From a virus, in IMG/VR virus record IMGVR_UViG_3300043409_000904, positions 1 through 51,863 of that record: a DNA stretch of 51,863 nucleotides. One strand, 5' to 3'. The position numbers and the translations under genes were made by a program. Positions within the stretch are counted from its first letter, which is position 1. Each line of letters starts with the position of its first letter. Positions 4,264-42,959 of this stretch are shown piece after piece. Below the pieces are notes generated by a model, which saw only the letters and a program-made list of their open reading frames with translations, did not search any database and was not told the origin of the DNA.

Positions 4264-4265
4264 TT

Positions 4266-4520
4266 ATGGCAATCACAGAAAAAAACATCATAGATGTAAT
4301 TGAAGTTTTAGAAAACAACACTATCCAAATTCGTAATGCAAACATTATAGAAAGAGATGGTATTGAAATAGCTAAAACATATCATCGGCACGTTATAAAT
4401 CCTTTGGATGATATAACTAATGAAGATGCAAAAGTTCAAACAATAGCAAACGCTATTTGGACAGAAGAGGTAATTAATAATTATAAAGGATTAATCAAAC
4501 CCATTGAGCAGATAGTATAA
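4266..4520 (+). CDS. Small fibre-associated hypothetical protein
   Basis: An 84-aa protein starting 2 nt after the stop of the 852-aa fibre, so translation is very likely coupled. It contains IAKTYHRHVINPLDDI and IANAIWTEEVINNYK, a pattern I associate with short proteins encoded just after fibre-tip genes in other phages. It is charged, lacks a signal peptide or membrane segment, and lacks the Ser/Thr repeats of its neighbours. A role in folding or capping the fibre tip is inferred from position only. After it, 4533-4546 holds a small CCGAAT/ATTCGG hairpin without a T tract. Confidence 0.55.
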   Translation: MAITEKNIIDVIEVLENNTIQIRNANIIERDGIEIAKTYHRHVINPLDDITNEDAKVQTIANAIWTEEVINNYKGLIKPIEQIV

Positions 4521-4574
4521 GTTACGCCAGAGCCGAATAGATTCGGACTATAATAAAAGAAAAAAGATATTGTT

Positions 4575-4583
4575 ATATTTATA
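4575..4583 (+). promoter_or_regulatory. Candidate late promoter motif ATATTTATA
   Basis: Exact motif copy ending 19 nt before the ATG of the 702-aa fibre gene. It has no TTTG box at host spacing. Confidence 0.55.
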
Positions 4584-4602
4584 AGAAACATAATAGAATT
4601 AA

Positions 4603-6711
4603 ATGGCAGCTATATTTCAAATTAGAAGAGGTTCGGGTTCAATTAATACATCTATATCTGATGGTGAACTGTATTTACATAAGAGTTCGGGCTCTTTACA
4701 ATTTTCATTAGGAGATGGAAATCCTGTAACATTAGCTAGATTAGATCAACCAAATTCGGGTTCATTACGATTGGGTGGAGATATAACTGCATCAAACGCA
4801 TATTTTAGTGGTGATGTTGCAATATCTGGAAACTTATTTTTAGGTAATAATTCATCGGACAATATTTCTGCATTAGGAGTATTTACATCAAATTTAAGTG
4901 CAGGAACAACAAATACATATGATATCGGATCTACTACATCTGTTTGGAGAAATGTATATGCAACATCTATATCAGGGGCAATAGCAGCAACAAATGGTGT
5001 AATATCGGGTTCATCTCAACTTATATCAATATTAGATCCTTTAAACGCATTTAGTAGTTCTCAATTAACACAAAATACCGCATTAGCAACTATATCTGGT
5101 TCTTTGATTTTAACTGCATCTGCAAATACTATATCAATAACAAATTTAAACGCATTTAGTAGTTCTCAATTAACACAAAATACTGCATTAGCAACTATAA
5201 CCGGTTCATTGATTTTAACTGCTTCGGCAAATACTATATCAATAGCGGAATTAAATGGGTATTCATCATCTTTAAAAGATGCAATAACTGTTAGTGGTTC
5301 TGGTGTTTCATCTACTACTACTATTAAAGGAAATTTAGTAGTGCAAGGAACACAAACCACAATTGATTCAACAACTCTTAATATTGGAGATAATATAATT
5401 GAATTAAATTTCGGTGGTTCACAAACTACGGCTGGAATTTATGCTAAAGATGCAACCGGTGGTTCTACTACTTCTGGTTCTTTATTATGGGATTCAACAT
5501 TAGATTATTGGAAAGGTGGAACATTAGGAAACGAAAGTAAATTATTAAGAGCCGGCGGTGATAATGTTATATCATCATCAACACAATTGGGGGATTTAAA
5601 CGCATTTACTGCTTCTATAAATAGTAGATTAAATAATTTAGAATTAACAACATCAAGTCTAAACATATCAGTTTCTAATATTAATACTACAACTGCGAGT
5701 TTAAATACATCAGTTTCTAATATCAATACATTTACTGCATCTGCATTAGTTAGATTTACAAATTTAGAATCAAAATCGGCATCGGTTGATATTTCTATTA
5801 CAAACATTAATACTACAACTGGGAGTTTAAATACTTCAATAACAAACATAAATAGTTTTACAAGTTCACAATTAATACAAAATACTACATTAGGTAATTA
5901 TACTGCAAGTGTAAATCAAACTACGGCAAGTTTAAATATAGCAACTGCTTCACTTAATACGTGGACTGGTTCTACATTTACCGCATATTCAAACTCTGTT
6001 GAATTTAGATTAGATGATTTGGAATATACGGCATCTATTTCGATAGGAGGAGGTTTAGCAGCTCAACTTACTATAATAAATCAACATACCGCTTCTATAA
6101 ATACATTTTCATCATCTGCAAATAGTAGATTAAATAATTTAGAAGCGGCAACATCTTCATATGAAACAAACGGTAGAGGCATAGTTAGTGGTTCATCTCA
6201 AATAGTTCCATTGCTACCTACTGGAGTAGTTAGTGGTTCATCTCAAATAGTTCCATTGCTACCTACGGGAGTAGTTAGTGGTTCAATTCAAATATTAGGA
6301 GGTTCTACTATTCATAGTGGTTCATCTGGTGATTATCAATTCAATTCAATTGGAGTTGGAACGGCAGCATCAACAGTAGCAGGTGAAATTAGAGCAACCG
6401 CAGATATCACAGCATTTTACTCATCCGATATCCGTTTAAAAGAAAATATACACCCAATCCTACACGCATTAGAAAAAGTTAAATCAATTAGTGGTAACAC
6501 ATATAATTGGAAAGCGGGATTTGATGAAATACATTCTCACAAAGGAAATGATATTGGAGTAATTGCACAAGAAATTGAAGCGGTATTACCACAAATTGTA
6601 ACAAATAGAGATAATGGGTATAAAGCAGTACAATACGAAAAAATTATTCCATTATTAGTAGAAGCAATTAAAGAATTATCAGCAAAAATTGACAGATTGG
6701 AAAATAAGTAG
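4603..6711 (+). CDS. Tail fibre with S74 intramolecular chaperone
   Basis: A 702-aa fibre. The N-terminus (FQIRRGSGSINTSISDGELY) is the anchor-like head. The shaft contains a 35-residue tandem duplication (LNAFSSSQLTQNTALATI block, nt 5043-5252), many TASLNTSVSNIN heptads, and a 15-residue tandem repeat VSGSSQIVPLLPTGV (nt 6184-6273). The last 100 residues form an S74 (endosialidase-type) chaperone: YSSDIRLKENI marks the usual self-cleavage site (before the Ser-Asp), followed by GNTYNWK, DIGVIAQEIEAVLPQIV and YEKIIPLLVEAIKEL. In this family the chaperone trimerises the fibre and then cuts itself off. The gene has its own late-type motif upstream, and another lies directly after its stop codon. 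Confidence 0.85.
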   Translation: MAAIFQIRRGSGSINTSISDGELYLHKSSGSLQFSLGDGNPVTLARLDQPNSGSLRLGGDITASNAYFSGDVAISGNLFLGNNSSDNISALGVFTSNLSAGTTNTYDIGSTTSVWRNVYATSISGAIAATNGVISGSSQLISILDPLNAFSSSQLTQNTALATISGSLILTASANTISITNLNAFSSSQLTQNTALATITGSLILTASANTISIAELNGYSSSLKDAITVSGSGVSSTTTIKGNLVVQGTQTTIDSTTLNIGDNIIELNFGGSQTTAGIYAKDATGGSTTSGSLLWDSTLDYWKGGTLGNESKLLRAGGDNVISSSTQLGDLNAFTASINSRLNNLELTTSSLNISVSNINTTTASLNTSVSNINTFTASALVRFTNLESKSASVDISITNINTTTGSLNTSITNINSFTSSQLIQNTTLGNYTASVNQTTASLNIATASLNTWTGSTFTAYSNSVEFRLDDLEYTASISIGGGLAAQLTIINQHTASINTFSSSANSRLNNLEAATSSYETNGRGIVSGSSQIVPLLPTGVVSGSSQIVPLLPTGVVSGSIQILGGSTIHSGSSGDYQFNSIGVGTAASTVAGEIRATADITAFYSSDIRLKENIHPILHALEKVKSISGNTYNWKAGFDEIHSHKGNDIGVIAQEIEAVLPQIVTNRDNGYKAVQYEKIIPLLVEAIKELSAKIDRLENK
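5043..5252 (+). repeat. 105-bp tandem duplication in fibre gene
   Basis: Two adjacent 105-bp units (5043-5147 and 5148-5252) encode 35 residues each, starting at LNAFSSSQLTQ. They differ mainly at silent positions, which indicates an older duplication kept under selection for the protein. Confidence 0.85.
6184..6273 (+). repeat. 45-bp tandem repeat in fibre gene
   Basis: Two 45-bp units (6184-6228 and 6229-6273), with one base difference that I see, encode VSGSSQIVPLLPTGV. A partial third unit follows from 6274. Their near identity suggests recent expansion. Confidence 0.85.
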
Positions 6712-6720
6712 ATATTTATA
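6712..6720 (+). promoter_or_regulatory. Candidate late promoter motif ATATTTATA
   Basis: Exact motif copy starting at the base after the stop codon of the 702-aa fibre and ending 48 nt before the next fibre ATG. Confidence 0.5.
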
Positions 6721-6768
6721 AACATACAATAATAATTTTATTAACGTACTAAAAAAAAGGTAAACTAG

Positions 6769-8355
6769 ATGGCACTTAAATTTAGACGTGGGACAACCGC
6801 ACAACAATCAGGTTCGTTAGCATTTGGAGAACCATATGTAAATACTACATTAGGAACTCTATTAATTGGTGGAACGAGTGGTGATATCGTATTATCCGCA
6901 GGAGGTACAGGAAGTACCGGAAACTTTGGAGCAATATCTGGTTCAGGATTGGATATTACCGGAAACGCAAACATTGCAGGAAATTTAACATTAGGTGGGG
7001 CTATCACAATTGGTGATGCATCTGCTGATACTGTAAATGTTATAGCATCTTTAAGTTCTTCACTTATTCCACAAACTACAAACGCATTTGATTTAGGGTC
7101 TGCAACTAAAATTTGGAAAGACCTTTATATTTCAACCGGTTCAATTAAATTTGTAGCAGGAACAACTGTTGTAAAAGAACTTAATTTAACAACATTAACT
7201 GCATTGGAAGCAGCAACCGGTTCGGCTAATGTATCCGTAACAAATTTAAATTCATTTACAAGTTCAATTGATACAACGATTAAAACTAAAATGAATACAG
7301 ATGGTGTAGTTTCGGGTTCTTCTCAAATTACATACGCAAATATATCTTCTATACCAGCCGGAATTATTAGTGGTTCATCGCAATTAAGTGGAACTACGAT
7401 TACGGATTTAACTGTTGTTAATTTAACAACAGTTAATCAAACTGCAAGTGTTTTATTTAGTAGTGGTTCAAATAAATTCGGTGACTTTGGCAATGATACG
7501 CATGAATTTACAGGTTCAGTTCAAATAAGTGGTTCAATTACAACAATAGGAACATCAACTGCAACTTCATTTAATGGAGTAATAAATGCAACCAATGGCG
7601 TAATAAGTGGTTCTTCACAACTTACCGCAAACTTACCAGCTGGTACAGTAAGTGGGTCTTCGCAGGTAATTGGTATATTGAGTTCATTAAATACTTACAC
7701 AGGTTCAAATGATACTACGAATACAAGTCAAAATACTTCTATTACGAATTTAAATACTACAACTGCAAGTTTAAACACTTCGGTAAGTAATTTAAATACT
7801 GCAACTTCATCTTACGAAACTAAGGGTAGAAGTATTGTATCTGGTTCATCACAAATAACTTTTAGTGGAATAAGTTCACTACCAACTTTGGTTAGTGGTA
7901 GTTCTCAAATTACATTATCAGCTACAACAGGTGGTACAACTGCTTCAAACGTACAATTTAACTCATTGGGTATTGGTATGGCGGCATCAGCTACCACAGG
8001 CAGAATTGATGCAACTAATGATATTGTAGCATTCTCATCTTCGGATATTCGTTTCAAAGAAAATATCGTTCCAATCCAAAACGCATTAGACAAAATTAGA
8101 AAGATTAGTGGTAATACTTACGATTGGAAAGAAGAGAATAAAATTGAGCACGGATATGAAGGAAATGATGTGGGTGTAATTGCACAAGAAATTGAAGCAG
8201 TTCTTCCACAATTAGTTCAAACTCGTGAAAACGGATACAAAGCAGTTAAATACGATAAGTTAGTTGCATTACTAATTGAAGGTATTAAAGAACAACAATT
8301 ACAAATAGAGCAATTAAGAATAGATCTAAATAATTCTGTAAATAGAGGTTTATAA
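6769..8355 (+). CDS. Tail fibre with S74 intramolecular chaperone
   Basis: A 528-aa fibre. The head is LKFRRGTTAQQSGSLAFGEPY. The shaft shares long stretches with the gene at 1705: TTVNQTASVLFSSGSNKFGD, then LNTYTGSNDTTNTSQNTSIT, then the TASLNTSVSNLN heptads. The C-terminus is a second S74 chaperone (SSSDIRFKENIVPIQNALDK, GNDVGVIAQEIEAVLPQLV, YDKLVALLIEGIKEQ), closely related to that of the 702-aa fibre, and ends in a short coiled coil. The glycosyltransferase gene starts 1 nt after the stop codon, so the two are translated together. Confidence 0.85.
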   Translation: MALKFRRGTTAQQSGSLAFGEPYVNTTLGTLLIGGTSGDIVLSAGGTGSTGNFGAISGSGLDITGNANIAGNLTLGGAITIGDASADTVNVIASLSSSLIPQTTNAFDLGSATKIWKDLYISTGSIKFVAGTTVVKELNLTTLTALEAATGSANVSVTNLNSFTSSIDTTIKTKMNTDGVVSGSSQITYANISSIPAGIISGSSQLSGTTITDLTVVNLTTVNQTASVLFSSGSNKFGDFGNDTHEFTGSVQISGSITTIGTSTATSFNGVINATNGVISGSSQLTANLPAGTVSGSSQVIGILSSLNTYTGSNDTTNTSQNTSITNLNTTTASLNTSVSNLNTATSSYETKGRSIVSGSSQITFSGISSLPTLVSGSSQITLSATTGGTTASNVQFNSLGIGMAASATTGRIDATNDIVAFSSSDIRFKENIVPIQNALDKIRKISGNTYDWKEENKIEHGYEGNDVGVIAQEIEAVLPQLVQTRENGYKAVKYDKLVALLIEGIKEQQLQIEQLRIDLNNSVNRGL

Positions 8356-24531: not shown

Positions 24532-24556
24532 CAGGATAAACACGCAATTACCAACA

Positions 24557-24958
24557 ATGATAAAGTTAAAAGATATACTAAACGAGAGTGTTATGAGTGT
24601 ATCGGATTTAGATGATACATTGGAACAATATAGAAAGGATACTAATTGGACAGATTGGTATATGAGTGGAGGATGTTATACATTTGCTGATGCACTAAAT
24701 AAGTATTTAGAAAATAGGGGTAAGTATATAGCTATAATAGAGCCGGAAACAAAAGCTATGGTTCATGTTTGTATTTTGTATAACGGAAAATATTGTGATT
24801 ATAACGGATGTAGAAGTAAAAACGATATACTATCCGATATCACTATAAACGGAACTCCTATATGGAAAAATATAAGTAGGTCACAAATAACATCTGAATA
24901 TAATTTTGATAATAGTGAAGTAAACTCAATACTAAAAAATTTAAGTAAAATAAAATAA
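24557..24958 (+). CDS. Putative injected head protein, papain-like
   Basis: A 133-aa protein. Its first ten residues, MIKLKDILNE, match the N-termini of the genes at 24958 and 26387 and resemble T4 capsid-targeting sequences, which the prohead protease gp21 removes after a Glu at about position 10. The rest holds YMSGGCYTFADAL (Cys40), MVHVCILYNGKYCDYNG (His70, Asp81): a Cys, His, Asp order and spacing like papain-fold peptidases or amidases. I infer an enzyme packed in the capsid and injected with the DNA, acting on a host target early in infection. The catalytic assignment is tentative. The next gene starts on the last base of its stop codon. Confidence 0.6.
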   Translation: MIKLKDILNESVMSVSDLDDTLEQYRKDTNWTDWYMSGGCYTFADALNKYLENRGKYIAIIEPETKAMVHVCILYNGKYCDYNGCRSKNDILSDITINGTPIWKNISRSQITSEYNFDNSEVNSILKNLSKIK

Positions 24959-26382
24959 TGATAAAGTTAAAAGATTTATTAAACGAAGTAAAATTCAAAT
25001 CACCGGATTATATTATTAGTACAACCCCCGCATCTAGTTTACCGGCACAAAAATTAGGTCATGCAGATGTATCTGTTGGTTTAAAAATGGCAGAAAAACT
25101 TAAAAACTATACATTACATGTTAGACACTATAAATTAGTACACGCCGATGGAAAAGTAGCATTAAAACTAACACCGGAAGGTAAGACCGCAGTAAGAGTA
25201 CGAACCGAAGATGACCCAAAATACTTACAATTGATACAAAAGACAGTTAATGATGTTGTAGCAGATTTTGTAAGTAAAATAAAAGAATCAGTAAACGAAG
25301 CATTAGACCCTAAAGCAGAAAAATTCTTAGATGCTATTCAGGTTAATGATAGAAGTATAAAGGATTTAAAGAATATCACTGTCGATGCAACCCCACAAGG
25401 TAATTGGTCAGTTTATTACAAAGGTAAACGTATGTTTACTCTTAATGGTAAGATGTTAGATGATAAAACTATTATGAAATATGGTTTAGAACATATGGAT
25501 GAGAGTTTATCAGAAGGCAAATACTATGTAACCTACAATAGAGGTAGGGGACAGGGTAAGGGGTTGGAAAAGGAATTTGACCAAAAATCATTTAGTTCAA
25601 CCGATAAACCAAAAGTATTTAATTCATATAATGATGCTAAGAAATACGCTGAAAAAATGGAAAAGATGTTCCAACATTCAATCGGTGGCGGTGTCGCATA
25701 TTGGGTATCGGATGAGAAGATGAATCCTATAAAAGAATCAGTAAACGAAGATAAAGTTTATATTGATTTTCTAAATAAGAAAAAGGGATTTAAGCAAGAT
25801 AGGATTAAATTTAATTCTTATGAAGATGCCGTTAAATGGGCAAAGAAGAATTTTGACAAGTTTGACCCCGATATGATTAAATACGAATCAGTAAACGAAG
25901 ATGCACCCATCTACAAAGATTGGGATGAATTTGTAAACCCACACTATATTTTAGTAACATTAAAAAATGGTAAAAAACTAAAAATAGAGAAAAAAAATGT
26001 TAAAGGTGGTACAAATATATATCACGCAATTTTAAAAGCTTTTAATGATAATAACCATAAAATAACTAATAAAGTTGTAAGTGGAATGATTGATAGATTA
26101 GGTGAATCGGTAAACGAAGCTCAAGCAAAGTATGATGTATATCACAATTCATATACATCGGCAATTCAATCGGCTAAAGAGTACGCAGAGAAAAACGGAT
26201 ATACTGTTAGCGATGATGATTCATTTAGAAAAATAGGTATGGGACCTCGTAAACCATCGGAAGGAAAGACCAATAGCTTTAGTATTGAATTATCATATGG
26301 TGGTAAAGATTCCAGAAAACAATTACATATTCAAGTATATGGTATGAGAAACAAATACGAATTAAACTGCTATATAGGATAA
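24958..26382 (+). CDS. Putative internal head polyprotein with ESVNE sites
   Basis: A 474-aa protein starting MIKLKDLLNE (capsid-targeting type). The sequence ESVNE occurs four times (residues 110-114, 260-264, 310-314, 383-387) and ESLSE once (182-186), always preceding a new module. Cutting after each final Glu, as T4 gp21 does at hydrophobic-x-Glu, would give six pieces of about 50-104 residues. Modules 3 and 4 share FNSY-x-DA-x-K-x-A. The last module (YAEKNGYTVSDDDSFRKI, GPRKPSEGKTNSFSIEL, QVYGMRNKYELNCYIG) is a domain I recall from virion proteins of marine T4-like phages. No membrane segment is seen. I infer a set of small proteins packed into the head as one chain and released by the prohead protease. 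Confidence 0.65.
   Translation: MIKLKDLLNEVKFKSPDYIISTTPASSLPAQKLGHADVSVGLKMAEKLKNYTLHVRHYKLVHADGKVALKLTPEGKTAVRVRTEDDPKYLQLIQKTVNDVVADFVSKIKESVNEALDPKAEKFLDAIQVNDRSIKDLKNITVDATPQGNWSVYYKGKRMFTLNGKMLDDKTIMKYGLEHMDESLSEGKYYVTYNRGRGQGKGLEKEFDQKSFSSTDKPKVFNSYNDAKKYAEKMEKMFQHSIGGGVAYWVSDEKMNPIKESVNEDKVYIDFLNKKKGFKQDRIKFNSYEDAVKWAKKNFDKFDPDMIKYESVNEDAPIYKDWDEFVNPHYILVTLKNGKKLKIEKKNVKGGTNIYHAILKAFNDNNHKITNKVVSGMIDRLGESVNEAQAKYDVYHNSYTSAIQSAKEYAEKNGYTVSDDDSFRKIGMGPRKPSEGKTNSFSIELSYGGKDSRKQLHIQVYGMRNKYELNCYIG
25285..26119 (+). repeat. Interspersed 16-bp repeat coding for ESVNE
   Basis: GAATCAGTAAACGAAG occurs exactly at 25285-25300, 25735-25750 and 25885-25900, and with one change at 26104-26119. 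The units are spread over 835 bp of the polyprotein gene. Conservation at DNA level suggests module duplication or exchange. Confidence 0.85.
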
Positions 26383-30281: not shown

Positions 30282-31148
30282 ATGGACATTTCATTAGCAT
30301 TAAAGAGATTTAGCTCTTTACAAAACAACACAAAAAAGTCTGACTCAATTTGGAAGCCAGCAAACGGTAAATCTCAAATCCGTTTAGTACCCTACAAATT
30401 TAATAAAGATAATCCTTTTATTGAATTGTATTTTCACTACAACATTAACAACAAAACGTACTTGTCACCAATTTCATTTGGAAGACCTGACCCAATCGTA
30501 GAGTTTGCAGACAAACTTAAACGTACAGGCGATACTGATGATTGGAAAGCAGGTAAGAAAATGGAGCCTAAATTAAGAACATTCGCACCAGTCGTTGTTA
30601 GAGGTAAAGAAAATGAGGGTGTTAAATTTTGGGGATTTGGTAAAACAGTTTATCAGGATATTTTGGGTTACATAGCCGATCCTGATTATGGAGATGTTAC
30701 TGATCCAATCAGTGGTAGAGATATTGTATTAGAAGTTACCGCAGCGGAAGAGTCTGGTACATCATATCCAACAACAACAATTAGAGTAAAACCCGCCGTT
30801 TCTAAACTGCACGAAGATGCGACAACCGTTCAACAACTATTGGAGGGACAAAAAGAAATTACTGAATTATATCAGGAATTATCTTACGCAGAATTAAAAG
30901 GTATTTTAGAAAATTGGTTAAATCCATCAGCAGGGGCACCGGATGAGGAATCAGTTGTAGCTGAATTAGCGGCAACTAAAACTCCAACACAACCTGTATC
31001 TACAACATCGGTTACAACCCCACAGTATGCGGCGACAACTCCTACAACGGAATTAAAAGATGATTTACCGTGGGAAGATGACGCACCTAAAACATCTGCA
31101 CCAAAAGATGATGTAGCATCGGCATTCGATGATTTATTTAACAATTAA
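30282..31148 (+). CDS. gp32: Single-stranded DNA-binding protein gp32
   Basis: A 288-aa homologue of T4 gp32 (301 aa). The core shows SIWKPANGKSQIRLVPYKFN, FIELYFHYNINNKTYLSPIS, then FGRPDPIVEFA and VVVRGKENEGVKFWGFGKTV. A Thr/Pro-rich linker leads to an acidic C-terminal tail (DDLPWEDDAP, VASAFDDLFNN), the part that binds other replication proteins in T4. The basic N-terminus (LKRFSSLQNNTKK) matches the cooperativity region. There is no cysteine in the protein, so the zinc-binding site of T4 gp32 (His and three Cys) is missing. uvsX follows after 14 nt, so recombination and replication genes are expressed together. Its own leader hairpin may give autoregulation. Confidence 0.9.
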   Translation: MDISLALKRFSSLQNNTKKSDSIWKPANGKSQIRLVPYKFNKDNPFIELYFHYNINNKTYLSPISFGRPDPIVEFADKLKRTGDTDDWKAGKKMEPKLRTFAPVVVRGKENEGVKFWGFGKTVYQDILGYIADPDYGDVTDPISGRDIVLEVTAAEESGTSYPTTTIRVKPAVSKLHEDATTVQQLLEGQKEITELYQELSYAELKGILENWLNPSAGAPDEESVVAELAATKTPTQPVSTTSVTTPQYAATTPTTELKDDLPWEDDAPKTSAPKDDVASAFDDLFNN

Positions 31149-31162
31149 TTAAAGCAGTTACG

Positions 31163-32269
31163 ATGGCAAAAAGAGAAGATGATTTGGCAAGTGTTCTTGC
31201 TGAATCATTAAATAAACAAAATAAGGATGGTAAGATTGCGTATTTCCTAACAGATGAGGGAGGGGATGCACCAACAAATGTAAAAGATTGGTTATCGACC
31301 GGTAATGCAATGTTGGATGTGGCAATCTCTAATAGACCTTATGGGGGTTTGCCAGTTGGTAGAATTGCAGAGATTACGGGTTTAGAGCAGAGTGGAAAAT
31401 CTCTGCTCTCTGCCCATCTTTTAGCAGAAACCCAAAAGAAGGGTGGTGTTGCAGTACTAATTGATACAGAAACCGCAGTAAGTAGGGAATTTTTAGAAGC
31501 AATCGGAGTAGATATTTCAAAACTCCTATATGTTTCAGTTGATACTGTTGAAGGTATTTTTGAAGCGTGTGAAACAATTATTGAGCAGGTTAGAAAAGGT
31601 GATAAAGACCGATTAGTAACAATTGTAGTAGATTCGGTAGCAGCTGCATCAACTAAATTGGAATTGGAAGCCGATTATGATAAAGATGGATTTGCGACAG
31701 GTAAAGCTATTATCATTTCAAAAGCAATGAGAAAGATTACCAATATGATTGGTAGACAATCTATCGCACTTATATTTACAAACCAATTAAGACAGAAAAT
31801 GAACGCAATGTTTGGTGACCCCTGGACAACATCAGGTGGTAAAGCATTGGCATTCCATAGTTCAGTTAGATTGAGATTGAAGAATATGGGGCAATTGAAA
31901 GTTGGTGATAGAATTGTTGGTATTAAGGTTCGTACGCAAGTTATTAAAAACAGAATGGGACCGCCACTAAGGTGTGCAGATTTTGATATCTTCTTTGATA
32001 GAGGTATTGATAACTACGGAGGTTGGTTAGCAGTTATGAAAGATAATAAAATTGTTAAACAGGCAGGTGCTTGGTATGAATACACTGATATAGAGAGTGG
32101 TGAAGTTATGAAGTTTCAATCTAAGGATTTTCCAAAGATGCTACAAAACGAAGTATTAAAAGACCAAATCTATCGTAGGATATGCGAAGAAACTATATTA
32201 CAATATAAAATCAATTCGAATTCGGAAGAAGTTGAAGTTACAACGGACGAAACAAATGAGTCAGATTAA
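31163..32269 (+). CDS. uvsX: UvsX RecA-like recombinase
   Basis: A 368-aa RecA/UvsX homologue (T4 UvsX is 391 aa). Walker A is GLEQSGKS (residues 73-80), the next segment is VAVLIDTETAVSREFLEAIG, and Walker B is RLVTIVVDSVAAAS. DNA-binding loop regions follow (SIALIFTNQLRQKMNAMFGD, TSGGKALAFHSSVRLRLK). It forms filaments on ssDNA with gp32 and drives strand exchange and recombination-dependent replication. Its C-terminus is acidic. The RNase H gene starts inside it (ATG 32256, a 14-base overlap). Confidence 0.92.
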   Translation: MAKREDDLASVLAESLNKQNKDGKIAYFLTDEGGDAPTNVKDWLSTGNAMLDVAISNRPYGGLPVGRIAEITGLEQSGKSLLSAHLLAETQKKGGVAVLIDTETAVSREFLEAIGVDISKLLYVSVDTVEGIFEACETIIEQVRKGDKDRLVTIVVDSVAAASTKLELEADYDKDGFATGKAIIISKAMRKITNMIGRQSIALIFTNQLRQKMNAMFGDPWTTSGGKALAFHSSVRLRLKNMGQLKVGDRIVGIKVRTQVIKNRMGPPLRCADFDIFFDRGIDNYGGWLAVMKDNKIVKQAGAWYEYTDIESGEVMKFQSKDFPKMLQNEVLKDQIYRRICEETILQYKINSNSEEVEVTTDETNESD

Positions 32270-33671: not shown

Positions 33672-33890
33672 ATGCCAATGAAGTGTATTAAATCAATAAA
33701 AGAAACCCCAAATACAAAATTGGGTATAATATTACGAGTTAAAGATTCGGAAGCCGATGAAAAAGTAACCAAAGGTAATTGGCAATATATTCCTAAATCC
33801 GAATGGAAGGAATCAACTCGCAAATCAAAAAGCGACCAAGCAGAGATTAAATCAAAAAAACAATCAAAGAAACAAAAAGCTGAAGCATAA
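33672..33890 (+). CDS. Small basic hypothetical protein
   Basis: A 72-aa protein. It starts MPMKCIKSIKETPNTKLGII and has a small domain with GNWQYIPKSEWKES, followed by a very basic C-terminal tail (RKSKSDQAEIKSKKQSKKQ). The first part resembles a short beta domain; the tail would bind nucleic acid. It is preceded by a Shine-Dalgarno-like site and its stop codon shares a base with the helicase ATG, so it is coupled to gp41. I do not recognise it; a helper of the helicase or primosome is a guess. Confidence 0.5.
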   Translation: MPMKCIKSIKETPNTKLGIILRVKDSEADEKVTKGNWQYIPKSEWKESTRKSKSDQAEIKSKKQSKKQKAEA

Positions 33891-35248
33891 TGGAAGCAAC
33901 CGATACACTCGTCAAATATGGGCAATCGTATCAATCGCGAGTTGTTACTTCCTTAATTACAGATGTCAAATTTTTAGAACAGGTATCGGAAATTACCAAA
34001 GAAGAGTTTTTTGAGTCCGATGCAAACAGGTGGATAGTACGTTCTGTCATAGATTACTTTAATGATTATAGAAATGTTCCTACAATGGAAGTTTTTAAAA
34101 TTAAAATAGGTGAAATTGAAGATAAAGTATTAAAGCAAACTGCAATAGAACAACTAAAAACTGTTTATTTGCAAGTAGGTTCGACTGATTTAGAATATGT
34201 AAAAAAAGAATACTTAACGTTTTGTAAAAATCAAAAAGTTAAAGAGGCATTGCTTAAATCGGTTGATTTACTTAAAATAGGTCAATATGATAAAATAGTT
34301 GATTTAATGAACGCTGCATCCAAAGTTGGAGTTGAATCCGATTTGGGATTAGACTATATTGAAAACTTTGAATCGATAATGGAGGATGTTAAAAGAAACT
34401 CCGTATCAACCGGTTGGGATGTAGTGGATGAACTAATGGATGGTGGATTAGGCCCCGGTGAATTGGGGGTAGTTATGGCGCCATCTGGAATTGGTAAGAC
34501 TTGGTTTTTATCAAAGATAGCGTGTGAGGCAATGAGAAGAGGTATGAATGTGCTACATTATAGTTTAGAATTATCAGAAAACTATGTTGGACAACGATAT
34601 ACTACAATCTTAACCGGAATACAAACATCCGAACATAAAGCTAGGAAAGAAGAGATTATTAGAAAAATAAAAGCAGTTCCAGGAAGAGTTCGTATTAAGT
34701 ATTATCCTCCACAATTCGCATCTTCAAAAACATTATCATCTCATATTGAAAAATTAAGAGCAACTGGGTTCAACCCACAGTTAATAATAATAGATTATGC
34801 GGATTTACTTAAATCATCTGATAAAGGTAGAGATGGTGCATACGCTGAATTGGGTGGAATTTATGAAGAATTGCGGGGATTAAGTGGAACTGCGTTGATA
34901 CCAATTTGGACTGCAACTCAAACAAATAGAGCCGCCATAGATCACGAAATTATTCAAGCGGATTCGGTTGGTGATTCATATAAGAAAGTACAAACTGCCG
35001 ATTTCATTATGAGTGTTAGTAGAAAAACTAAGGATAAGTTATCAAATACGGGTCGTATTCACATCGTTAAGAATCGATTTGGACCTGATGGTATGACATT
35101 TCCGGCAAAGATTGATACATTTCACGGTATTATGGATGTTTTTGCGAGTAATTCTACCGATGGGGTAAGTGCGACTAGAGATAGTAAAAATGGAGAAGGT
35201 TTAGAAAAGAAACTACTACATAAAAAATATGTAGACAATATGGGATAA
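33890..35248 (+). CDS. gp41: Replicative DNA helicase gp41
   Basis: A 452-aa DnaB-like helicase (T4 gp41 is 475 aa). The N-terminal helical domain (1-150) is followed by GLGPGELGVVMAPSGIGKTW with Walker A residues 197-204, LHYSLELSENYVGQRYTTIL, Walker B LIIIDYADLLKSS, IPIWTATQTNRAA and the C-terminal IHIVKNRFGPDGMTFPAKID. It unwinds DNA at the fork as a hexamer. It is coupled to the gene before it by a one-base overlap. Its 3' end (LLHKKYVDNMG) is duplicated 784 bp further on, after the methyltransferase gene, which shows a rearrangement here. Confidence 0.92.
   Translation: MEATDTLVKYGQSYQSRVVTSLITDVKFLEQVSEITKEEFFESDANRWIVRSVIDYFNDYRNVPTMEVFKIKIGEIEDKVLKQTAIEQLKTVYLQVGSTDLEYVKKEYLTFCKNQKVKEALLKSVDLLKIGQYDKIVDLMNAASKVGVESDLGLDYIENFESIMEDVKRNSVSTGWDVVDELMDGGLGPGELGVVMAPSGIGKTWFLSKIACEAMRRGMNVLHYSLELSENYVGQRYTTILTGIQTSEHKARKEEIIRKIKAVPGRVRIKYYPPQFASSKTLSSHIEKLRATGFNPQLIIIDYADLLKSSDKGRDGAYAELGGIYEELRGLSGTALIPIWTATQTNRAAIDHEIIQADSVGDSYKKVQTADFIMSVSRKTKDKLSNTGRIHIVKNRFGPDGMTFPAKIDTFHGIMDVFASNSTDGVSATRDSKNGEGLEKKLLHKKYVDNMG
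35202..35244 (+). repeat. Direct repeat copy 1, end of gp41 gene
   Basis: Last codons of gp41. Copy 2 is at 35986-36028. 35210-35244 is identical to 35994-36028 (35 bp); the match extends back to 35202 with two differences. The period is 784 bp. Confidence 0.92.
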
Positions 35249-35251
35249 GTT

Positions 35252-35977
35252 ATGAAATTATTACTAGGAGATTGTTTAGATAAACTTAAAGAATTGGATG
35301 ATAATAGTATTGACCATATTATAAGTGATTGGCCCTTCTATGGTGTTGTTAAAGAAGATTGGGATAACCAATGGAATAATTTAGATGAGTATTTAGATTG
35401 GGCTGAAACGATTATCATTGAATACAAACGAATTGTTAAAGAAGGTGGTAATGTTGTAATCTTCACAGGTAGACAATACAACAGACATATTTGTACTATT
35501 TTGGATAAGTATTTTACTGAAAAACGAATTATAATTTGGAGTAGAAAACGGGCATTCAATTCATCAAGAGGAAACGCATTATCAAGTGGATATGAACCTA
35601 TATGTTATTATACAAATGGTGACAAAGGTACATTTAATACTATAAAGATAAAACCAAATACAACTCGAAAAGAATACACAGAGGGTATATTAAAAGAGGG
35701 TATAACTTTAAGTGATGTTTGGGATGATATATCAGCTTTACCACATAATAGTAAAGAAAAACTAAATCATCCAACACAAAAACCCTACAAACTGATTGAA
35801 AGATTAGTTTTGATGTTATCTAACGAGGGAAATGTGATATTGGATAATTTTGCAGGTAGTGGAACACTTGGTGAGGTTTGTATAAATACGAATAGAGAAT
35901 GTATCCTTATTGAAAAGGATGTTGAGTATTTTGAGTTGATTAAAAATAGATTAGATAAGTATAAGTTTTTTCAGTAA
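35252..35977 (+). CDS. Beta-class DNA methyltransferase, DWPF motif
   Basis: A 241-aa N4C/N6A-type methyltransferase of beta order: motif IV near the N-terminus (SDWPFYG, residues 25-31), then WSRKRAFNSSRGNALSSGYE, HPTQKP (173-178) and the SAM-binding ILDNFAGSGTLGEVC (198-204 for DNFAGSG). It starts MKLLLGDCLDKLKEL, the usual opening of this family. The catalytic motif normally reads DPPY or SPPY; Trp replaces the first Pro here, which is rare. It lies alone between two copies of the end of the gp41 gene and starts with a GTTATG context, so it looks like an inserted cassette. A solitary methyltransferase could protect phage DNA from host restriction. Confidence 0.82.
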   Translation: MKLLLGDCLDKLKELDDNSIDHIISDWPFYGVVKEDWDNQWNNLDEYLDWAETIIIEYKRIVKEGGNVVIFTGRQYNRHICTILDKYFTEKRIIIWSRKRAFNSSRGNALSSGYEPICYYTNGDKGTFNTIKIKPNTTRKEYTEGILKEGITLSDVWDDISALPHNSKEKLNHPTQKPYKLIERLVLMLSNEGNVILDNFAGSGTLGEVCINTNRECILIEKDVEYFELIKNRLDKYKFFQ

Positions 35978-35985
35978 GGATTAAA

Positions 35986-36028
35986 TAGAAATAAAACTAC
36001 TACATAAAAAATATGTAGACAATATGGG
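35986..36028 (+). repeat. Direct repeat copy 2, remnant of gp41 3' end
   Basis: In the gp41 frame this copy reads IEIKLLHKKYVDNMG and then TAA, and the next gene's ATG (36032) overlaps that stop by one base. It is a remnant of the old gp41 end after insertion of the methyltransferase. Confidence 0.9.
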
Positions 36029-36031
36029 TTA

Positions 36032-37087
36032 ATGGTAAATTACGATAGTTTTAGTAAATTCATAGAAAATGATACTTTGGCATTGGAGTATCACAGAATA
36101 AGCAGAGATATAACTACTATCACAGATAGGGTGTATGCTGAAAATGTGATATTCCAATATCATAGGAAAGAAGGATTTCCACACTATAACGTTAATAACC
36201 ATAATAAGTTATCACAATTGAAATCATTAATTAATTTTGATGAAAACACAATATATGGGGATGGTAAATTAAACCAAACTATGCATTGCTTATCGTTAGC
36301 TTGGACTTATTTCCCGCATTGGGTAGAAGTTTTGTGTGGTAGTAGTAAAATGAGACCGATTGATTATTGGAATGATGATAAAAAATTAAAAGAAATTATT
36401 AGAAAAACGTGGGATTGGCAAGTTAAGCATGGGAATGGTACATTTACACTAAATAGATTACGACAAAACTTTAAGATATATGGTGGAAACCAATCGGTTA
36501 GTAATTTTAGACCATCGGTAGCCAAATGGATATACAATACATATGGTGGAGATACGGTATGGGATATGAGTTGTGGATGGGGCGGGAGATTGATAGGATT
36601 TTTGGCAAGTAATTGTAAAACATACATAGGTACTGATCCATCTACAAAGACGTATGAAGGGTTATTACAAATAAAAGATGAACTAAATTTTTTTAATAAA
36701 GAAATTATCTTACATAAATTAGGTTCGGAAGAATTTGTACCTGAAAGTGAAAGTTTGGATTTATGTTTTACATCTCCTCCATATTTTGATACAGAAAAGT
36801 ATTCAGAGGAACTTACACAATCTTACAAAAAGTATCCAAACGAAAGCGATTGGATAGATGGGTTTTTAACAAAGACTATTATAAACTGCCATATTGGTTT
36901 AAAAGTGGGTGGTAAGATGCTAATAAACATAGCAAATACACCAAAGTATAAACAAATTGAAAGTGAAACTATTAGAATTGCCGAAGAAATTGGATTTGAA
37001 AAAACAGATATACTATATATGATACTATCATCCGTAGCCGGTAAGGGTAATAAACTTGAACCAATATTTGTATTTACCAAAAAATAA
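36032..37087 (+). CDS. SPPYF methyltransferase-like protein, paralogue 1
   Basis: A 351-aa protein. A variable N-terminal part (1-150) precedes a SAM-dependent methyltransferase core: VWDMSCGWGGRLIGFLAS (motif I, about 177-193), YIGTDPSTKTYEG, SLDLCFTSPPYFDTEKYSEE (motif IV, SPPYF 248-252), TQSYKKYPNESDWIDGF, and GLKVGGKMLINIANTP. Motif I before motif IV is the alpha or gamma order. Two more members of the family lie at 41718 and 43732; all share FxPxxAK, a GWG motif I, and SPPYF followed by Y-S and a QS pair. SPPY is typical of N4-cytosine methyltransferases; the true reaction is unknown. Its ATG overlaps a remnant gp41 stop. Confidence 0.72.
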   Translation: MVNYDSFSKFIENDTLALEYHRISRDITTITDRVYAENVIFQYHRKEGFPHYNVNNHNKLSQLKSLINFDENTIYGDGKLNQTMHCLSLAWTYFPHWVEVLCGSSKMRPIDYWNDDKKLKEIIRKTWDWQVKHGNGTFTLNRLRQNFKIYGGNQSVSNFRPSVAKWIYNTYGGDTVWDMSCGWGGRLIGFLASNCKTYIGTDPSTKTYEGLLQIKDELNFFNKEIILHKLGSEEFVPESESLDLCFTSPPYFDTEKYSEELTQSYKKYPNESDWIDGFLTKTIINCHIGLKVGGKMLINIANTPKYKQIESETIRIAEEIGFEKTDILYMILSSVAGKGNKLEPIFVFTKK

Positions 37088-37255
37088 AGATAAGTATAAA
37101 AATTAAATAAAAAGTGTTAATAAATATTTTAAAAAAAGTGTATTTTTTCTTTCTAAAATAAGGACGTATACCAAAAGACTTGATATTTATGAGTACATTT
37201 TTAGGTTTTCCTGAAAAAATATCTATACACTTTAAAATAAAAAAAATAAAAAAAA
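37088..37255 (+). promoter_or_regulatory. AT-rich leader of the ribonucleotide reductase gene
   Basis: A 168-nt gap, almost pure A/T. It holds a late-like motif ATATTTATG (37183-37191), 64 nt before the ATG, a small hairpin around 37197-37217, and an outer inverted repeat AAAGTGTA (37135-37142) / TACACTTT (37226-37233). I see no cobalamin riboswitch box although the gene product is probably B12-dependent. Confidence 0.3.
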
Positions 37256-39112
37256 ATGGACATTTCAAACAAAATTTTATCGGACATTACGGTCTATATG
37301 AAATACTCAAAGTATAATCCTGAATTAAATAGGAGAGAAACTTGGGAAGAGTTGGTTACTAGAAATATGAATATGCATATTAAAAAGTACCCACATTTAG
37401 AAGCAGAGATTAGAGAGAATTACAAATTTGTTTATAATAAGCAAATTTTACCATCAATGCGTTCAATGCAGTTTGCAGGAAAGCCAATTGAGATAAGTCC
37501 AAATAGAATTTACAATTGTGCATTTGCACCAATTGATGATTGGAGAGTATTTTCTGAAATTATGTTTCTTCTTTTAGGTGGAACGGGCGTTGGGTATTCC
37601 GTACAAAAACATCACGTGGATGCTCTACCTGAAATAAGAAAACCATCAACCGAAAAGACAAGAAGATTTCTAATAGGTGATTCAATTGAAGGATGGGCGG
37701 ATGCAATATCTGTATTGGTTAAAGCATACTTTTTTGGTGGATCGAAGCCTGTTTTTGATTTTAGAGATATCAGACAAAAAGGAGCTAAATTAGTAACATC
37801 GGGAGGTAAAGCACCTGGGCCACAACCCCTAAAAGAGTGTTTAATCAAATTAGAAGGAATTTTAGATACACACACTGATGGTGATAGATTATCACCAATT
37901 GAAGTGCATGATATGGTTTGTCATATTGCAGATGCAGTATTGGCAGGTGGTATTCGTAGAGCAGCCCTAATTTCATTATTCTCCGCAACAGATGAGGATA
38001 TGATTAGTTGTAAGAGTGGGGATTGGTGGGAAAATAATCCACAAAGAGGTAGAGCAAACAACTCTGCGGTATTGATGAGACATAAAATAGATAAAAATTA
38101 TTTTATGGATTTATGGAAAAGAATTGAGGCAAGTGGTGCAGGTGAACCGGGCATCTACCTATCAAATGATAAAGATTGGGGAACTAACCCTTGTTGTGAA
38201 ATCGCATTAAGACCTTTTCAATTCTGTAATTTATGTGAAGTGAATGTAAGTGATGTTAGCACTCAAGAAGAATTAAATGATAGAGTTAAAGCAGCATCAT
38301 TCGTAGGAACATTGCAGGCGGGTTATACAGATTTTCATTACCTAAGACCTATTTGGCAGAGAACAACTGAAAAGGATGCCCTAATTGGTATATCTATGAC
38401 AGGTATAGGAAGTGGTGCGGTATTGAAATTGGATATGAAAGCGGCATCTAAAGTTGTTAAAGCAGAAAACAAAAGATTAGCAGAGATACTAAATATTAAT
38501 GTATCTGCAAGAACTACAACTGTAAAACCTGCTGGAACTACTTCATTAACATTAGGTACATCATCGGGAATACACGCGTGGCACAATGATTACTATATTC
38601 GTAGAGTTAGGGTTGGTAAAAATGAATCAATTTATACACATTTATTAATAAATCATCCAGAATTAGTTGAAGATGAATATTTTAGACCACATGATACGGC
38701 GGTTATTGGGATACCACAGAAGGCACCTGATACTGCGATATTCAGAACGGAATCACCTATTCAACTTTTAGAAAGAGTTAAGAAAGTTCATTCGGAGTGG
38801 ATTAAACCTGGACACAGATCTGGAAATAATACACACAATGTATCCGCGACAGTTTCTATAAGAGAGCACGAATGGGATGCAGTTGGTGAGTGGATGTGGG
38901 AAAATAAGGAGTTTTATAATGGATTATCGGTATTACCATATAATGGTGGAAGTTATATTCAGGCTCCGTTTGAAGATTGTACTAAGGAAAAATACGAAGA
39001 ACTAATGAAAGCATTGAAAGATGTTGATTTGAGTAAAGTAATTGAATTAGAAGATAATACCGATTTGAGTGGGGAATTAGCCTGCGCTGGTGGAGCGTGT
39101 GAAATAAAATAA
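37256..39112 (+). CDS. nrdJ: Class II (B12-dependent) ribonucleotide reductase
   Basis: A 618-aa protein of the monomeric ribonucleoside-triphosphate reductase type (Lactobacillus enzyme 739 aa). Residues agree well: Cys88 (NRIYNCAFAP) and Cys324 as redox pair, Cys313 as thiyl radical with Glu315 (NPCCEIALRPFQFC; the 11-residue Cys spacing equals Cys408-Cys419 of the Lactobacillus enzyme), the PAGTTS loop, and a C-terminal CAGGAC (610-615) as shuttle pair. It needs adenosylcobalamin and makes dNTPs without oxygen or a NrdB subunit; none is seen here. The thioredoxin gene 175 nt downstream would be its reductant. T4 itself uses class I NrdAB. Confidence 0.88.
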   Translation: MDISNKILSDITVYMKYSKYNPELNRRETWEELVTRNMNMHIKKYPHLEAEIRENYKFVYNKQILPSMRSMQFAGKPIEISPNRIYNCAFAPIDDWRVFSEIMFLLLGGTGVGYSVQKHHVDALPEIRKPSTEKTRRFLIGDSIEGWADAISVLVKAYFFGGSKPVFDFRDIRQKGAKLVTSGGKAPGPQPLKECLIKLEGILDTHTDGDRLSPIEVHDMVCHIADAVLAGGIRRAALISLFSATDEDMISCKSGDWWENNPQRGRANNSAVLMRHKIDKNYFMDLWKRIEASGAGEPGIYLSNDKDWGTNPCCEIALRPFQFCNLCEVNVSDVSTQEELNDRVKAASFVGTLQAGYTDFHYLRPIWQRTTEKDALIGISMTGIGSGAVLKLDMKAASKVVKAENKRLAEILNINVSARTTTVKPAGTTSLTLGTSSGIHAWHNDYYIRRVRVGKNESIYTHLLINHPELVEDEYFRPHDTAVIGIPQKAPDTAIFRTESPIQLLERVKKVHSEWIKPGHRSGNNTHNVSATVSIREHEWDAVGEWMWENKEFYNGLSVLPYNGGSYIQAPFEDCTKEKYEELMKALKDVDLSKVIELEDNTDLSGELACAGGACEIK

Positions 39113-39731: not shown

Positions 39732-41186
39732 ATGTGTGGAATAATAGGTGGAAATGGTTTCAATGAAACTACCATAGGGGAAGGTATATCCAAAATAATA
39801 CATAGAGGTAGAGATTGTTCAAAAGTAGAAATGATAGATGATTTTTACTTTGGACATAATCGGTTATCTATTCAGGATATATCTTCGGAAGCAAACCAAC
39901 CAATGTGGAATGCTGATAATACTGTTTGTATTATTTACAATGGTGAGTTATGGGATAGTGGTTATACTCAAAATTTAAAAGATAGTATCACAATTCCATT
40001 TAGAACAAAATCTGATACAGAGGTAATTTTAAACGCGTATTTAGATTATGGGGCTGGTTCATTCGGTGAATTGGATGGTATGTTTTCGTTTTGTATTATA
40101 GATACTAGAATAGATACTTCATTTTTAGTTAGGGATTATATTGGAGAATTGCCATTTTGGTATGCAATTGATAATGCCGGTAAATTGTTTTTTTGTTCTG
40201 AAAAGAAAGGATTGCCAATATCGGAACTATATGAGAAACAGGTTAAAGTAGTTTATCCGGGTACATACCTACAATATAATTACAAAACATTAGAACATTC
40301 AACTCAAACTTACTACAAATTACCAACTGAAATTATTAACGATGATAGAGAAACTATTATCAAAAATATAAGAAGTATGTTGGAAGAATCCGTTAGAGTA
40401 AAAATGGTTTCTGACGTTCCAATTTGCACCATTCTAAGCGGGGGCATCGATAGTGTTATCACAACTTACATTCTTTCTAAAATAAACCCGGACATTGAGG
40501 CATTTGTAGTTTCAATGGGAGATGGTAATACCAAAGATGATGATATAAAATATGCCAGAATTGCAGCAAAAGAGTTTGGTGTAAAACTGCATGAAATAAT
40601 ATTAACAGAGGATGATGTTAAAGATGCGATAAATGAAACCCTATATGTTATAGAGCAAGCTAGGTGGCAAAATGTAGGTTCGGCAATTGCACAGATTGCA
40701 TTAGGAAAACGGATAAATGAGTTAGGATTTAAGGTTGTATTCAGTGGTGATCTTTCTGATGAAATTTGGGGCAGTTATGGGCACATACAGGCATTTCATT
40801 ACAAACCAGATGATTATGATAAAGCACGGAGAAAGTTGGTAAGTGATGTACATAAAACAAATTTCTTAACAACAAATCAATCAATTATGTGGGGTGGTAC
40901 TGTTGAAGTTAGAACACCGTATAGTTGGAGACCATTCGTAGAGTATTCACTAAATATACCACCATTATATCAAAAAGAAAATGGGCATATGAAACCTCTT
41001 TTAAGAGAAGCATTTAGAGGTGAAATCAGTGATGAATTACTTTGGAGAAAAAAGGTATTTTTCGCGCAGGGTTGTAGAACTGCTGATTTAATTGAAAGTG
41101 AAAAAAAGACTTTGAAATCTCAATTAAATTCCTTATATTTGTATAAGGATACTCTTAATCTAAATAAGTTTTTTAAATATGCTTAA
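39732..41186 (+). CDS. asnB: Asparagine synthetase-like amidotransferase
   Basis: A 484-aa protein with both AsnB domains. The glutaminase domain has the nucleophile Cys2 (MCGIIGG), RLSIQD (44-49), YNGEL (69-73) and KSDTEV. The synthetase domain has the pyrophosphate loop LSGGIDSV (SGGIDS 236-241), FSGDLSDEIWGSYGH and the late VEVRTPY. All expected catalytic residues are there, so it should transfer ammonia from glutamine to an AMP-activated carboxylate. Bacterial AsnB is about 550 aa; this one is shorter at the C-terminus. The GNAT gene starts inside its end, and a methyltransferase-like gene follows, so the substrate may be a modified base or protein rather than free aspartate. Confidence 0.85.
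   Translation: MCGIIGGNGFNETTIGEGISKIIHRGRDCSKVEMIDDFYFGHNRLSIQDISSEANQPMWNADNTVCIIYNGELWDSGYTQNLKDSITIPFRTKSDTEVILNAYLDYGAGSFGELDGMFSFCIIDTRIDTSFLVRDYIGELPFWYAIDNAGKLFFCSEKKGLPISELYEKQVKVVYPGTYLQYNYKTLEHSTQTYYKLPTEIINDDRETIIKNIRSMLEESVRVKMVSDVPICTILSGGIDSVITTYILSKINPDIEAFVVSMGDGNTKDDDIKYARIAAKEFGVKLHEIILTEDDVKDAINETLYVIEQARWQNVGSAIAQIALGKRINELGFKVVFSGDLSDEIWGSYGHIQAFHYKPDDYDKARRKLVSDVHKTNFLTTNQSIMWGGTVEVRTPYSWRPFVEYSLNIPPLYQKENGHMKPLLREAFRGEISDELLWRKKVFFAQGCRTADLIESEKKTLKSQLNSLYLYKDTLNLNKFFKYA
41111..41141 (+). promoter_or_regulatory. Host-type promoter inside asnB 3' end
   Basis: TTTG at 41111-41114, 19-nt spacer, TATATTTG at 41134-41141. It would start transcription about 30 nt before the GNAT gene, allowing the GNAT and methyltransferase genes to be expressed without asnB. 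The -7 box sits in a small CCTTAT/ATAAGG palindrome. Confidence 0.65.
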
Positions 41187-41727
41187 TTTTATAAATTTTT
41201 TAAATATGTTAAATTTCGTAAAAGCGGAAAGTGGCTCAAACAAAATATTAGAAGCCACCAATAATGCAATGTCTATAATAGACCTGTATCCAGATATATT
41301 CCCACACCTATATAAGCAGGGTTTTAAATTAGAAAAATATTTTGAAAAGGGAAACATCATACTGCAAGATGGAGTTGTAATTACATTTGGTAGATATAAG
41401 AGTAAAGGTAGATTATCAAAAAACGCAACCACATATAAAAAGAGTGGAGATTTTATACTACATCAAATTGCATCAAACGGTTCAGTTAAAGATGGTGCTA
41501 AAAGTGTATTGAATGAGTTTATAAAGTATTGTAAAAAAGAAAGAGCCGAAAACTTATACCTAACTGTAAGAGAGTTTAACACAAAGGCAGTTGCTTTTTA
41601 TTTAAAAAATGGATTTATAATAGACTCTAAAATACATTGGACAAGTAAAAAAGATGGAGTAATACCTGGATTAGTTTTCAGATTAAGATTAGTTGCAGAT
41701 AAAAATATAGAAACCGTATGTATATAG
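41179..41727 (+). CDS. GNAT-type acyltransferase
   Basis: A 182-aa protein (173 aa if started at the in-frame ATG 41206). The C-terminal part has the GNAT look: GDFILHQIASNGSVKDGAKS (the acetyl-CoA-binding region, although the classic R/Q-x-x-G-x-G/A is not clear), YLTVREFNTKAVAFYLKNGF and a last strand VIPGLVFRLRL. The N-terminus begins MLNFINFLNMLNFVK, made by a 27-bp duplication of the start region. It overlaps asnB by 8 bases and the next gene by 10 bases, so the three are translationally coupled. Mom of phage Mu, which modifies adenine in DNA, also has a GNAT fold; a similar DNA-modifying role is possible but not shown by any residue I can name. Confidence 0.65.
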   Translation: MLNFINFLNMLNFVKAESGSNKILEATNNAMSIIDLYPDIFPHLYKQGFKLEKYFEKGNIILQDGVVITFGRYKSKGRLSKNATTYKKSGDFILHQIASNGSVKDGAKSVLNEFIKYCKKERAENLYLTVREFNTKAVAFYLKNGFIIDSKIHWTSKKDGVIPGLVFRLRLVADKNIETVCI

Positions 41728-42959
41728 AATATTTTAATAAGTTTAAAGGAATGACACCGTATCTTTATATTGATAAGGAAGAGTGGAGTTATATAAAAAA
41801 TACATTCGAAATAAGTGATGTAAAAGAAAGTTTGGCAACTATCTGTATGGAGTATCCATTACCAACTGCAGATTTAACTGAAAGTGATGCCAGAAGTGAA
41901 TACCTTTCATTAAAGGGAACGAGGTGGCGTGAATTATTAAAAGAAGGTGAATGGTTTCCGAGAAAAGCAACTGATAGTAAGTATTCATTAGACTTTAAAG
42001 GAAAGAAACAGTATATACGAAGAATAAATACTGGCAACGCTGCATCTAATTATTTTCAACAAAGAAATAGATGGAGTGTAGATGGTACGGTTTCACCCGG
42101 ACCGCAAAGAACTTGGGAAAGTTTTGATTTTATGAAAACTTTAATGGGTGGTTTATACACTCTAAAATTTGAATCAGTAAGTAGAAACGAATTAAGAGTA
42201 TGTTTGAGCTTACGAAAGTACATATGTTCTCAATTTAAACCAAATGTTGCAAAAGCATTGTATGATTATTTAGAATGTGAAAATGTTTTAGATATATCGG
42301 CAGGTTGGGGTGATAGGTTATGTGGATTCTTCGCCAGTGAAAAGGGAAAACATTATGTAGGAATAGACCCTAGAAAAGAAAACCACCCAATATATAGGGA
42401 GCAGGCTGATTTTTACACAAAACACAACGGTTTTTTTGAAACAGAAAAGATAGCAGACTTTATTGAAGCACCTGCGGAGGATGCGGACTTAACAATGTAT
42501 AAAGACCATTTTGATATTGTATTCAGTTCACCACCGTATTTTAATGTTGAAAGATACTCATATGATGATACACAGAGTTGGGTTAGATATAAAAATATAG
42601 ATGCTTGGAATAAACTATTCTTACATAAAACCATAGAAAATGTGTGGCCAACCATTAAAGATGGTGGATATCTTGCAATAAACATTGCGGATGTATATGC
42701 TGCTTCCAAAGGTGATGGTAAAGGGTATCAGGAAATAACAAACCCAATGAATGATTACATTTCAACATTAGAAGGAGCAGTTTATGAGGGATGTTTAGGT
42801 ATGGAAATGGCTAAACGACCTGGAAGTGCTGGAGCAGGCGCAATAATAGAAGGAGATGAGGGTAGATATACCGAAGAGGCATTATTAAAAGCTGAAGAAG
42901 GTAAGAATAAAATATTTTGTGAACCTGTTTGGGTTTGGAGAAAGCAAATAAATTTGTAA
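41718..42959 (+). CDS. SPPYF methyltransferase-like protein, paralogue 2
   Basis: A 413-aa member of the same family as the genes at 36032 and 43732. The N-terminal part (1-150) is its own (KGTRWRELLKEGEWFPRKAT). The core shows FKPNVAKALYDYLECENVLD, then ISAGWGDRLCGFFAS (motif I, about 191-207), YVGIDPRKENHP, FDIVFSSPPYFNVERYSYDD (SPPYF 271-275), TQSWVRY and IKDGGYLAINIADVYAAS. A C-terminal extension (AKRPGSAGAGAIIEGDEGRY) is absent from paralogue 1. It overlaps the GNAT gene by 10 bases, and its end carries the TTTG of the gp45 promoter. The pairing with AsnB-like and GNAT enzymes suggests more than simple methylation. Confidence 0.72.
   Translation: MYIEYFNKFKGMTPYLYIDKEEWSYIKNTFEISDVKESLATICMEYPLPTADLTESDARSEYLSLKGTRWRELLKEGEWFPRKATDSKYSLDFKGKKQYIRRINTGNAASNYFQQRNRWSVDGTVSPGPQRTWESFDFMKTLMGGLYTLKFESVSRNELRVCLSLRKYICSQFKPNVAKALYDYLECENVLDISAGWGDRLCGFFASEKGKHYVGIDPRKENHPIYREQADFYTKHNGFFETEKIADFIEAPAEDADLTMYKDHFDIVFSSPPYFNVERYSYDDTQSWVRYKNIDAWNKLFLHKTIENVWPTIKDGGYLAINIADVYAASKGDGKGYQEITNPMNDYISTLEGAVYEGCLGMEMAKRPGSAGAGAIIEGDEGRYTEEALLKAEEGKNKIFCEPVWVWRKQINL

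Follow-up and report, generated by a model that had tools for sequence, protein, structure and literature searches.

Acquisition of a DNA methyltransferase gene behind the replicative helicase gene of an uncultured T4-like phage, with duplication of the helicase 3' end

Introduction

In the genome of an uncultured T4-like phage, the 3' end of the replicative helicase gene is present twice: once in the helicase gene itself and once behind a methyltransferase gene, here called M1, which separates the helicase gene from its original neighbour, M2. How did M1 enter this locus, which lineage supplied it, and could it leave again through the repeats that flank it? Our material, referred to as the window, is a stretch of 51,863 nucleotides of a metagenomic assembly, judged from its contig sequence alone. 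We compared it with other phage contigs (numbered with the prefix L) and propose, with a probability of roughly 0.8 for the explanation as a whole, that M1 was acquired from a phage lineage with the gene order helicase - M1 - (second methylase) - mom-like, by two joins that were out of register. The features of the locus are collected in Table 1.

Table 1. Features of the helicase-reductase interval, in window coordinates
Feature	Position	Strand	Basis or remark
T4 gp41-like DnaB-family replicative helicase gene	33890..35248	+	phrog_19 E=2.8e-77; PF03796 E=2.8e-18
Repeat copy 1, helicase gene 3' end	35210..35244	+	left side runs into ancestral helicase sequence
Left junction	35237..35251	+	recipient helicase 3' end to donor helicase-M1 junction, AATATGGG / ATAAGTTATG
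M1, predicted DNA adenine/cytosine-N4 methyltransferase, 241 aa	35252..35977	+	PF01555 (N6_N4_Mtase) E=1.6e-44
Right donor flank	35964..35997	+	like second methylase gene end and Mom-like gene start in L085-L087 (TAAGGGTTAAATGGAAATAAAAC)
Repeat copy 2, duplicated helicase 3' end	35994..36028	+	right side runs into ancestral M2 start
M2, putative SAM-dependent DNA methyltransferase; native neighbour of the helicase gene in this lineage	36032..37087	+	SPPY motif
Ribonucleotide reductase, closing the variable slot on its far side	37256..39112	+	phrog_367 E=1.6e-128

Results

A 35-bp repeat frames the methyltransferase gene

When recomputed, the two repeat copies matched at 35/35 positions with a period of 784 bp, as the preliminary description of this DNA had claimed, and a longer alignment (35202-35248 with 35986-36032) extends over 47 bp with three differences (94% identity). 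Exact repeats reached at most 19 bp when the window was shuffled 20 times with a second-order Markov model, and the 35-bp repeat is therefore not a product of chance. Copy 2 is still read in register as the helicase end (LLHKKYVDNMG, then a stop), and its TAA at 36030-36032 overlaps the M2 start codon at 36032, as had also been described. Repeats of other kinds occur elsewhere in the window. Two adjacent genes, starting at 24557 and 24958, have a 33-bp stretch in common at their starts (24553-24585 and 24954-24986, 91%) and both begin by encoding MIKLKD, and positions 2600-8310 hold several direct repeats of 130-230 bp (74-83%) and a VSGSSQ-coding motif that recurs in large genes, which are probably repeated tail-fibre domains.

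The differences between the two copies had been reported as two mismatches at one edge and read as the mark of a recent event. Two do lie at the 5' edge (35208-35209), and a third lies at the 3' edge (35245). The left flank of copy 1 and the right flank of copy 2 (GGGTTAATGGTAAATTA) carry the same letters as L001 and L106, two phages with an empty site; comparison with this site and with the donors indicates that the mismatches belong to the junctions and fall beyond the duplicated segment, and are not mutations that followed the duplication. They consequently give no date for the event, and the argument built on them fails. The 35 identical base pairs say little on age as well, since these phages diverge from one another by about 1%, at which about 0.3 differences would be expected in 35 bp.

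Close relatives carry the empty site

The comparison with related phages lacking the gene, which the preliminary description had pointed to, could be made with two IMG/VR contigs that are about 99% identical to the window at the nucleotide level: L001 (left side, 99.2% over 6.2 kb; right side, 99.0% over 595 bp) and L106 (left side, 98.6% over 579 bp; right side, 98.9% over 7.1 kb). In both, the helicase gene passes straight into M2 with one repeat copy and without M1, as expected if the two genes had formerly been direct neighbours. Joining the window in silico through its repeat gave a product that differs from L001 at 2/516 and from L106 at 5/516 positions, with no difference within the repeat or at its edges; recombination between the copies would thus restore the old junction, as had been predicted. 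A degenerate pattern for the helicase/M2 junction retrieved 22 stretches from viral_contigs (23 junctions with the window). The helicase is uninterrupted in the upstream 560-600 bp at 21 of the 22, the remaining one (L218) being cut by the contig end after 15 helicase codons, and M1 is found in the window alone. The outgroups L107 and L109, which have the same gene pair and a helicase with 77-82% amino acid identity, lack M1 across their 209-kb and 221-kb contigs. By parsimony, these relatives and outgroups make the M1-less state ancestral, and the sequence comparison confirms M1 as an insertion between the helicase gene and M2. We rejected the idea that copy 2 is a conserved M2 leader in its own right: in L001, L106 and another 19 junctions, one copy is both helicase end and M2 leader.

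The clean in-silico product also bears on the possibility that M1 is a switchable cassette, regularly lost through the 35-bp repeats and regained, so that the population would be phase-variable for methylation. Excision would give exactly the allele of L001 and L106. It is likely to be feasible, because deletions in T4-family phages under selection have used direct repeats of only 5-10 nt (PMC5449768); these resemble the present case in that a block which the large T4-like phage can spare lies between direct repeats and a loss leaves one copy, and differ in that our repeat is 35 bp long and our data show a gain with duplication, the loss being a prediction. The empty and the filled state were each seen in different metagenome contigs. 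Judged by the repeats, switching is possible, yet we consider it improbable as an account of the locus: the M1-less state is the ancestral one in the outgroups, regain has no evident mechanism, the unit contains no recombinase, and no second phage with the repeats was found. Among 140 helicase loci, including those that bear cargo, the window alone shows a duplicated helicase end, and the scar therefore marks one event and not the usual way in which this interval changes. All evidence fits a one-off acquisition scar, with no sign of a dedicated switch.

M1 is predicted to be an intact orphan methyltransferase

M1 scores 153 bits against PF01555 (gathering cut-off 26.7), and its nearest solved structure is M.RsrI (E=4.4e-26). 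Domain, motif order and the SAM-binding motif I, NFAGSG, are those of orphan beta-class N6-adenine/N4-cytosine phage methyltransferases (PF01555, phrog_67), of which the closest cultured-phage relatives are about 30-33% identical. Motif IV departs from the common DPPY and from the class pattern (D/N/S)PP(Y/F/W); it reads DWPF and is invariant in ten close homologues. A dN/dS of about 0.05-0.09 against six homologues argues for maintenance of M1 by selection. M1 alone fills the 784-bp unit, in which we found no restriction enzyme, recombinase, homing endonuclease or other endonuclease. By these features, M1 is predicted to be an intact beta-type N6/N4 DNA methyltransferase, an orphan under purifying selection. 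Its probable role, suggested by family membership, is to methylate the phage's DNA and thereby protect it against host restriction; activity with DWPF is likewise a prediction.

The left junction matches a distant helicase-M1 lineage

The closest homologues of M1 are found in L081-L088 and L098 (95.4-98.6% nucleotide identity) and none in the phages nearest to the window. In L085-L088 and L098 the homologue lies directly behind a helicase gene whose product is 55-57% identical to that of the window, and in L081-L084 it occupies another locus, upstream of a groEL-like gene. A broader scan based on the M1 alignment returned essentially the same contigs as the first, and the genome contigs yielded a single relative of 31%. 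Judged by these matches, M1 is a horizontal acquisition from a distant, related phage lineage. A recent acquisition is suggested by the 98.6% identity that M1 shows to copies from other phages, together with the lack of M1 in L001 and L106, and the recency claimed earlier is in keeping with these data, if not with the mismatches.

The left junction of the window reads AATATGGG followed by ATAAGTTATGAAATTA: the left part is recipient sequence, and ATAAGTTATGAAATTA, which L085-L088 and L098 also carry, is replaced by TTAATGG in empty sites. In L085-L088 the helicase-M1 junction is GGGATAAGTTATGAAATTA, compared with GGGTTAATGG in empty sites. M1 had been thought to enter between the two genes with its own start context; the insertion stands, and the context is that of the donor helicase-M1 junction, since the left edge GGGATAAGTTATG is as in L085-L088. 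Between the two lineages, the final 30 nt of the helicase gene have a mean identity of 86%, compared with 52-76% in the preceding 390 nt, which makes the helicase end a natural homology anchor for crossing between them. A gp41 end of an unrelated lineage (L186, reverse strand 3888-3920) matches the helicase 3' end of the window exactly over 33 bp; the L186 helicase is 56% identical in protein sequence and is followed by a different small gene.

The right junction matches the start of a Mom-like gene

At the right junction, the donor flank ends in AAAC (35994-35997). No verbatim match to the bases after M1 (CAGTAAGGATTAAATAGAAATA) was found in viral_contigs with 28 or 23 bases, and no phage with the exact right-flank sequence, which would mark it as the immediate donor, was found there. 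The best counterpart in a mismatch-tolerant search was the boundary of the second methylase and Mom-like genes in L085-L087, CGGATAAGGGTTAAATGGAAATAAAACCAATACATAAAAA, to which the non-repeat part (35975-35993) aligns without gaps at 17/19 positions. This score was reached by 1/5000 query shuffles and 13/5000 random region sets, and would fall short of significance if all loci were searched; the match counts because of its place in the donor operon, where order and orientation are as required (helicase - M1 - second methylase - mom-like). This donor stretch agrees with the recipient helicase end at 19/23 positions, the last ten being identical (TACATAAAAA), and it is inside this patch, at AAAC, that the window changes from donor to recipient. 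A flank derived from an L096-like region downstream of M1 was also considered and dismissed (similarity p=0.2, not significant). A search for a Mom-like gene in the window, run without a positive control, found none.

The direct donor type would carry helicase - M1 - TAAGGATTAAATGGAAATAAAACC. The motif AGTTTTT occurs at the end of both M1 and the second methylase gene of the donor, and the latter, which lies between M1 and the mom-like gene, may have been lost through it. In L092-L094, M1 stands directly before mom. A short remnant between M1 and M2 in L088 (6721-6750, ATGAAATTATTATTAGGTTGAGTAA) resembles the opening codons of a second methylase gene that has been deleted.

Repeats placed exactly at the joins might also arise from a chimeric assembly, in which reads of two co-occurring phages were connected through a common helicase 3' end, and the 33 exact bp in L186 make a short-k crossover conceivable. 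Such a chimera would still need a real molecule leading from M1 to copy 2 with the mom-like remnant, an adjacency that is itself composite, and the helicase, M1 and M2 reading frames are all intact; we judge this origin to be decidedly unlikely.

The interval collects DNA-modification genes

M2 matches PF01555 weakly and below the cut-off (E=4.5e-5), and its relatives are annotated as N-4 cytosine-specific DNA methylases. In several close relatives, the reductase gene follows the helicase gene after about 163 nt. Across the surveyed loci, the interval behind the helicase contains only these ~163 nt, M2, M1-type or longer methylases, Mom-like proteins (PF25680, E=2.3e-51), or a Methyltransf_24 protein. 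Gene content thus identifies the helicase-reductase interval (window 33890-39112, L002-L141) as a hotspot for DNA-modification genes. That it is a dedicated exchange slot, held open by the conserved helicase 3' end, with repeat-flanked variants gained and lost fast in step with host restriction, seems doubtful to us. Beyond the reductase, a product encoded at 39732-41186 starts with MCGIIGG and resembles by eye a glutamine-hydrolysing asparagine synthetase (phrog_16728, which has no given function), and a third putative methyltransferase gene at 41718-42959 (phrog_12517 E=1.1e-15, weak PF01555) is distantly like M2.

Discussion

We propose that the left join took place in the helicase 3' end, which is conserved between the lineages, so that the recipient helicase would have remained intact. 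The right join would have paired the first codons of the donor mom-like gene with the partly similar 3' end of the recipient helicase gene (AAACyAmTACATAAAAA). In recipient coordinates it would lie 35 bp upstream of the left join, and those 35 bp would therefore appear twice, with copy 1 completing the helicase and copy 2 keeping the native sequence before M2. The likeliest agent is the phage's own T4-type recombination-dependent replication, with which the nearby genes for a UvsX-like recombinase (31163-32269, phrog_97) and a gp32-like single-strand binding protein (30282-31148) agree.

Two joins that are out of register by 35 bp account for the duplication, without recourse to a dedicated mobile element. 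Restriction-modification genes in bacteria are described as inserting with long, variable target duplications (Nobusato et al., 2000, as cited in PMC3031569 and PMC2749054), and one could imagine a homing or transposing element that makes such duplications with an enzyme of its own. As far as the citing accounts describe them, those insertions share with ours a methyltransferase-bearing insert, an empty site in a close relative, and a direct duplication of tens of base pairs without a transposase. In contrast, our case concerns a phage and an orphan methylase without a restriction enzyme, and both of its joins were traced to the donor, which points to out-of-register recombination and not to a transposition-like act. 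Moreover, the unit is one gene, for an intact methyltransferase; donor sequence accounts for the flanks of the unit, the slot is used by homologous position and not by target site, and no duplication occurs at any other of the 140 loci; an element of this kind has, in our estimation, a very slim chance of being responsible. The gene exchange beside essential replication genes is reminiscent of regions bounded by homing endonuclease genes (PMC10448857); our unit, however, is without a homing endonuclease, and the cargo consists of DNA-modification enzymes.

With the state before the event, the donor type and both joins readable, the locus offers a well-resolved snapshot of a lytic phage gaining a single DNA-modification gene. 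The conserved end of an essential gene can serve as a landing site and remain undamaged, and the slot between replicative helicase and ribonucleotide reductase, in which numerous related phages differ in their sets of methylase and Mom-like genes, is a tractable place to study the restriction arms race.
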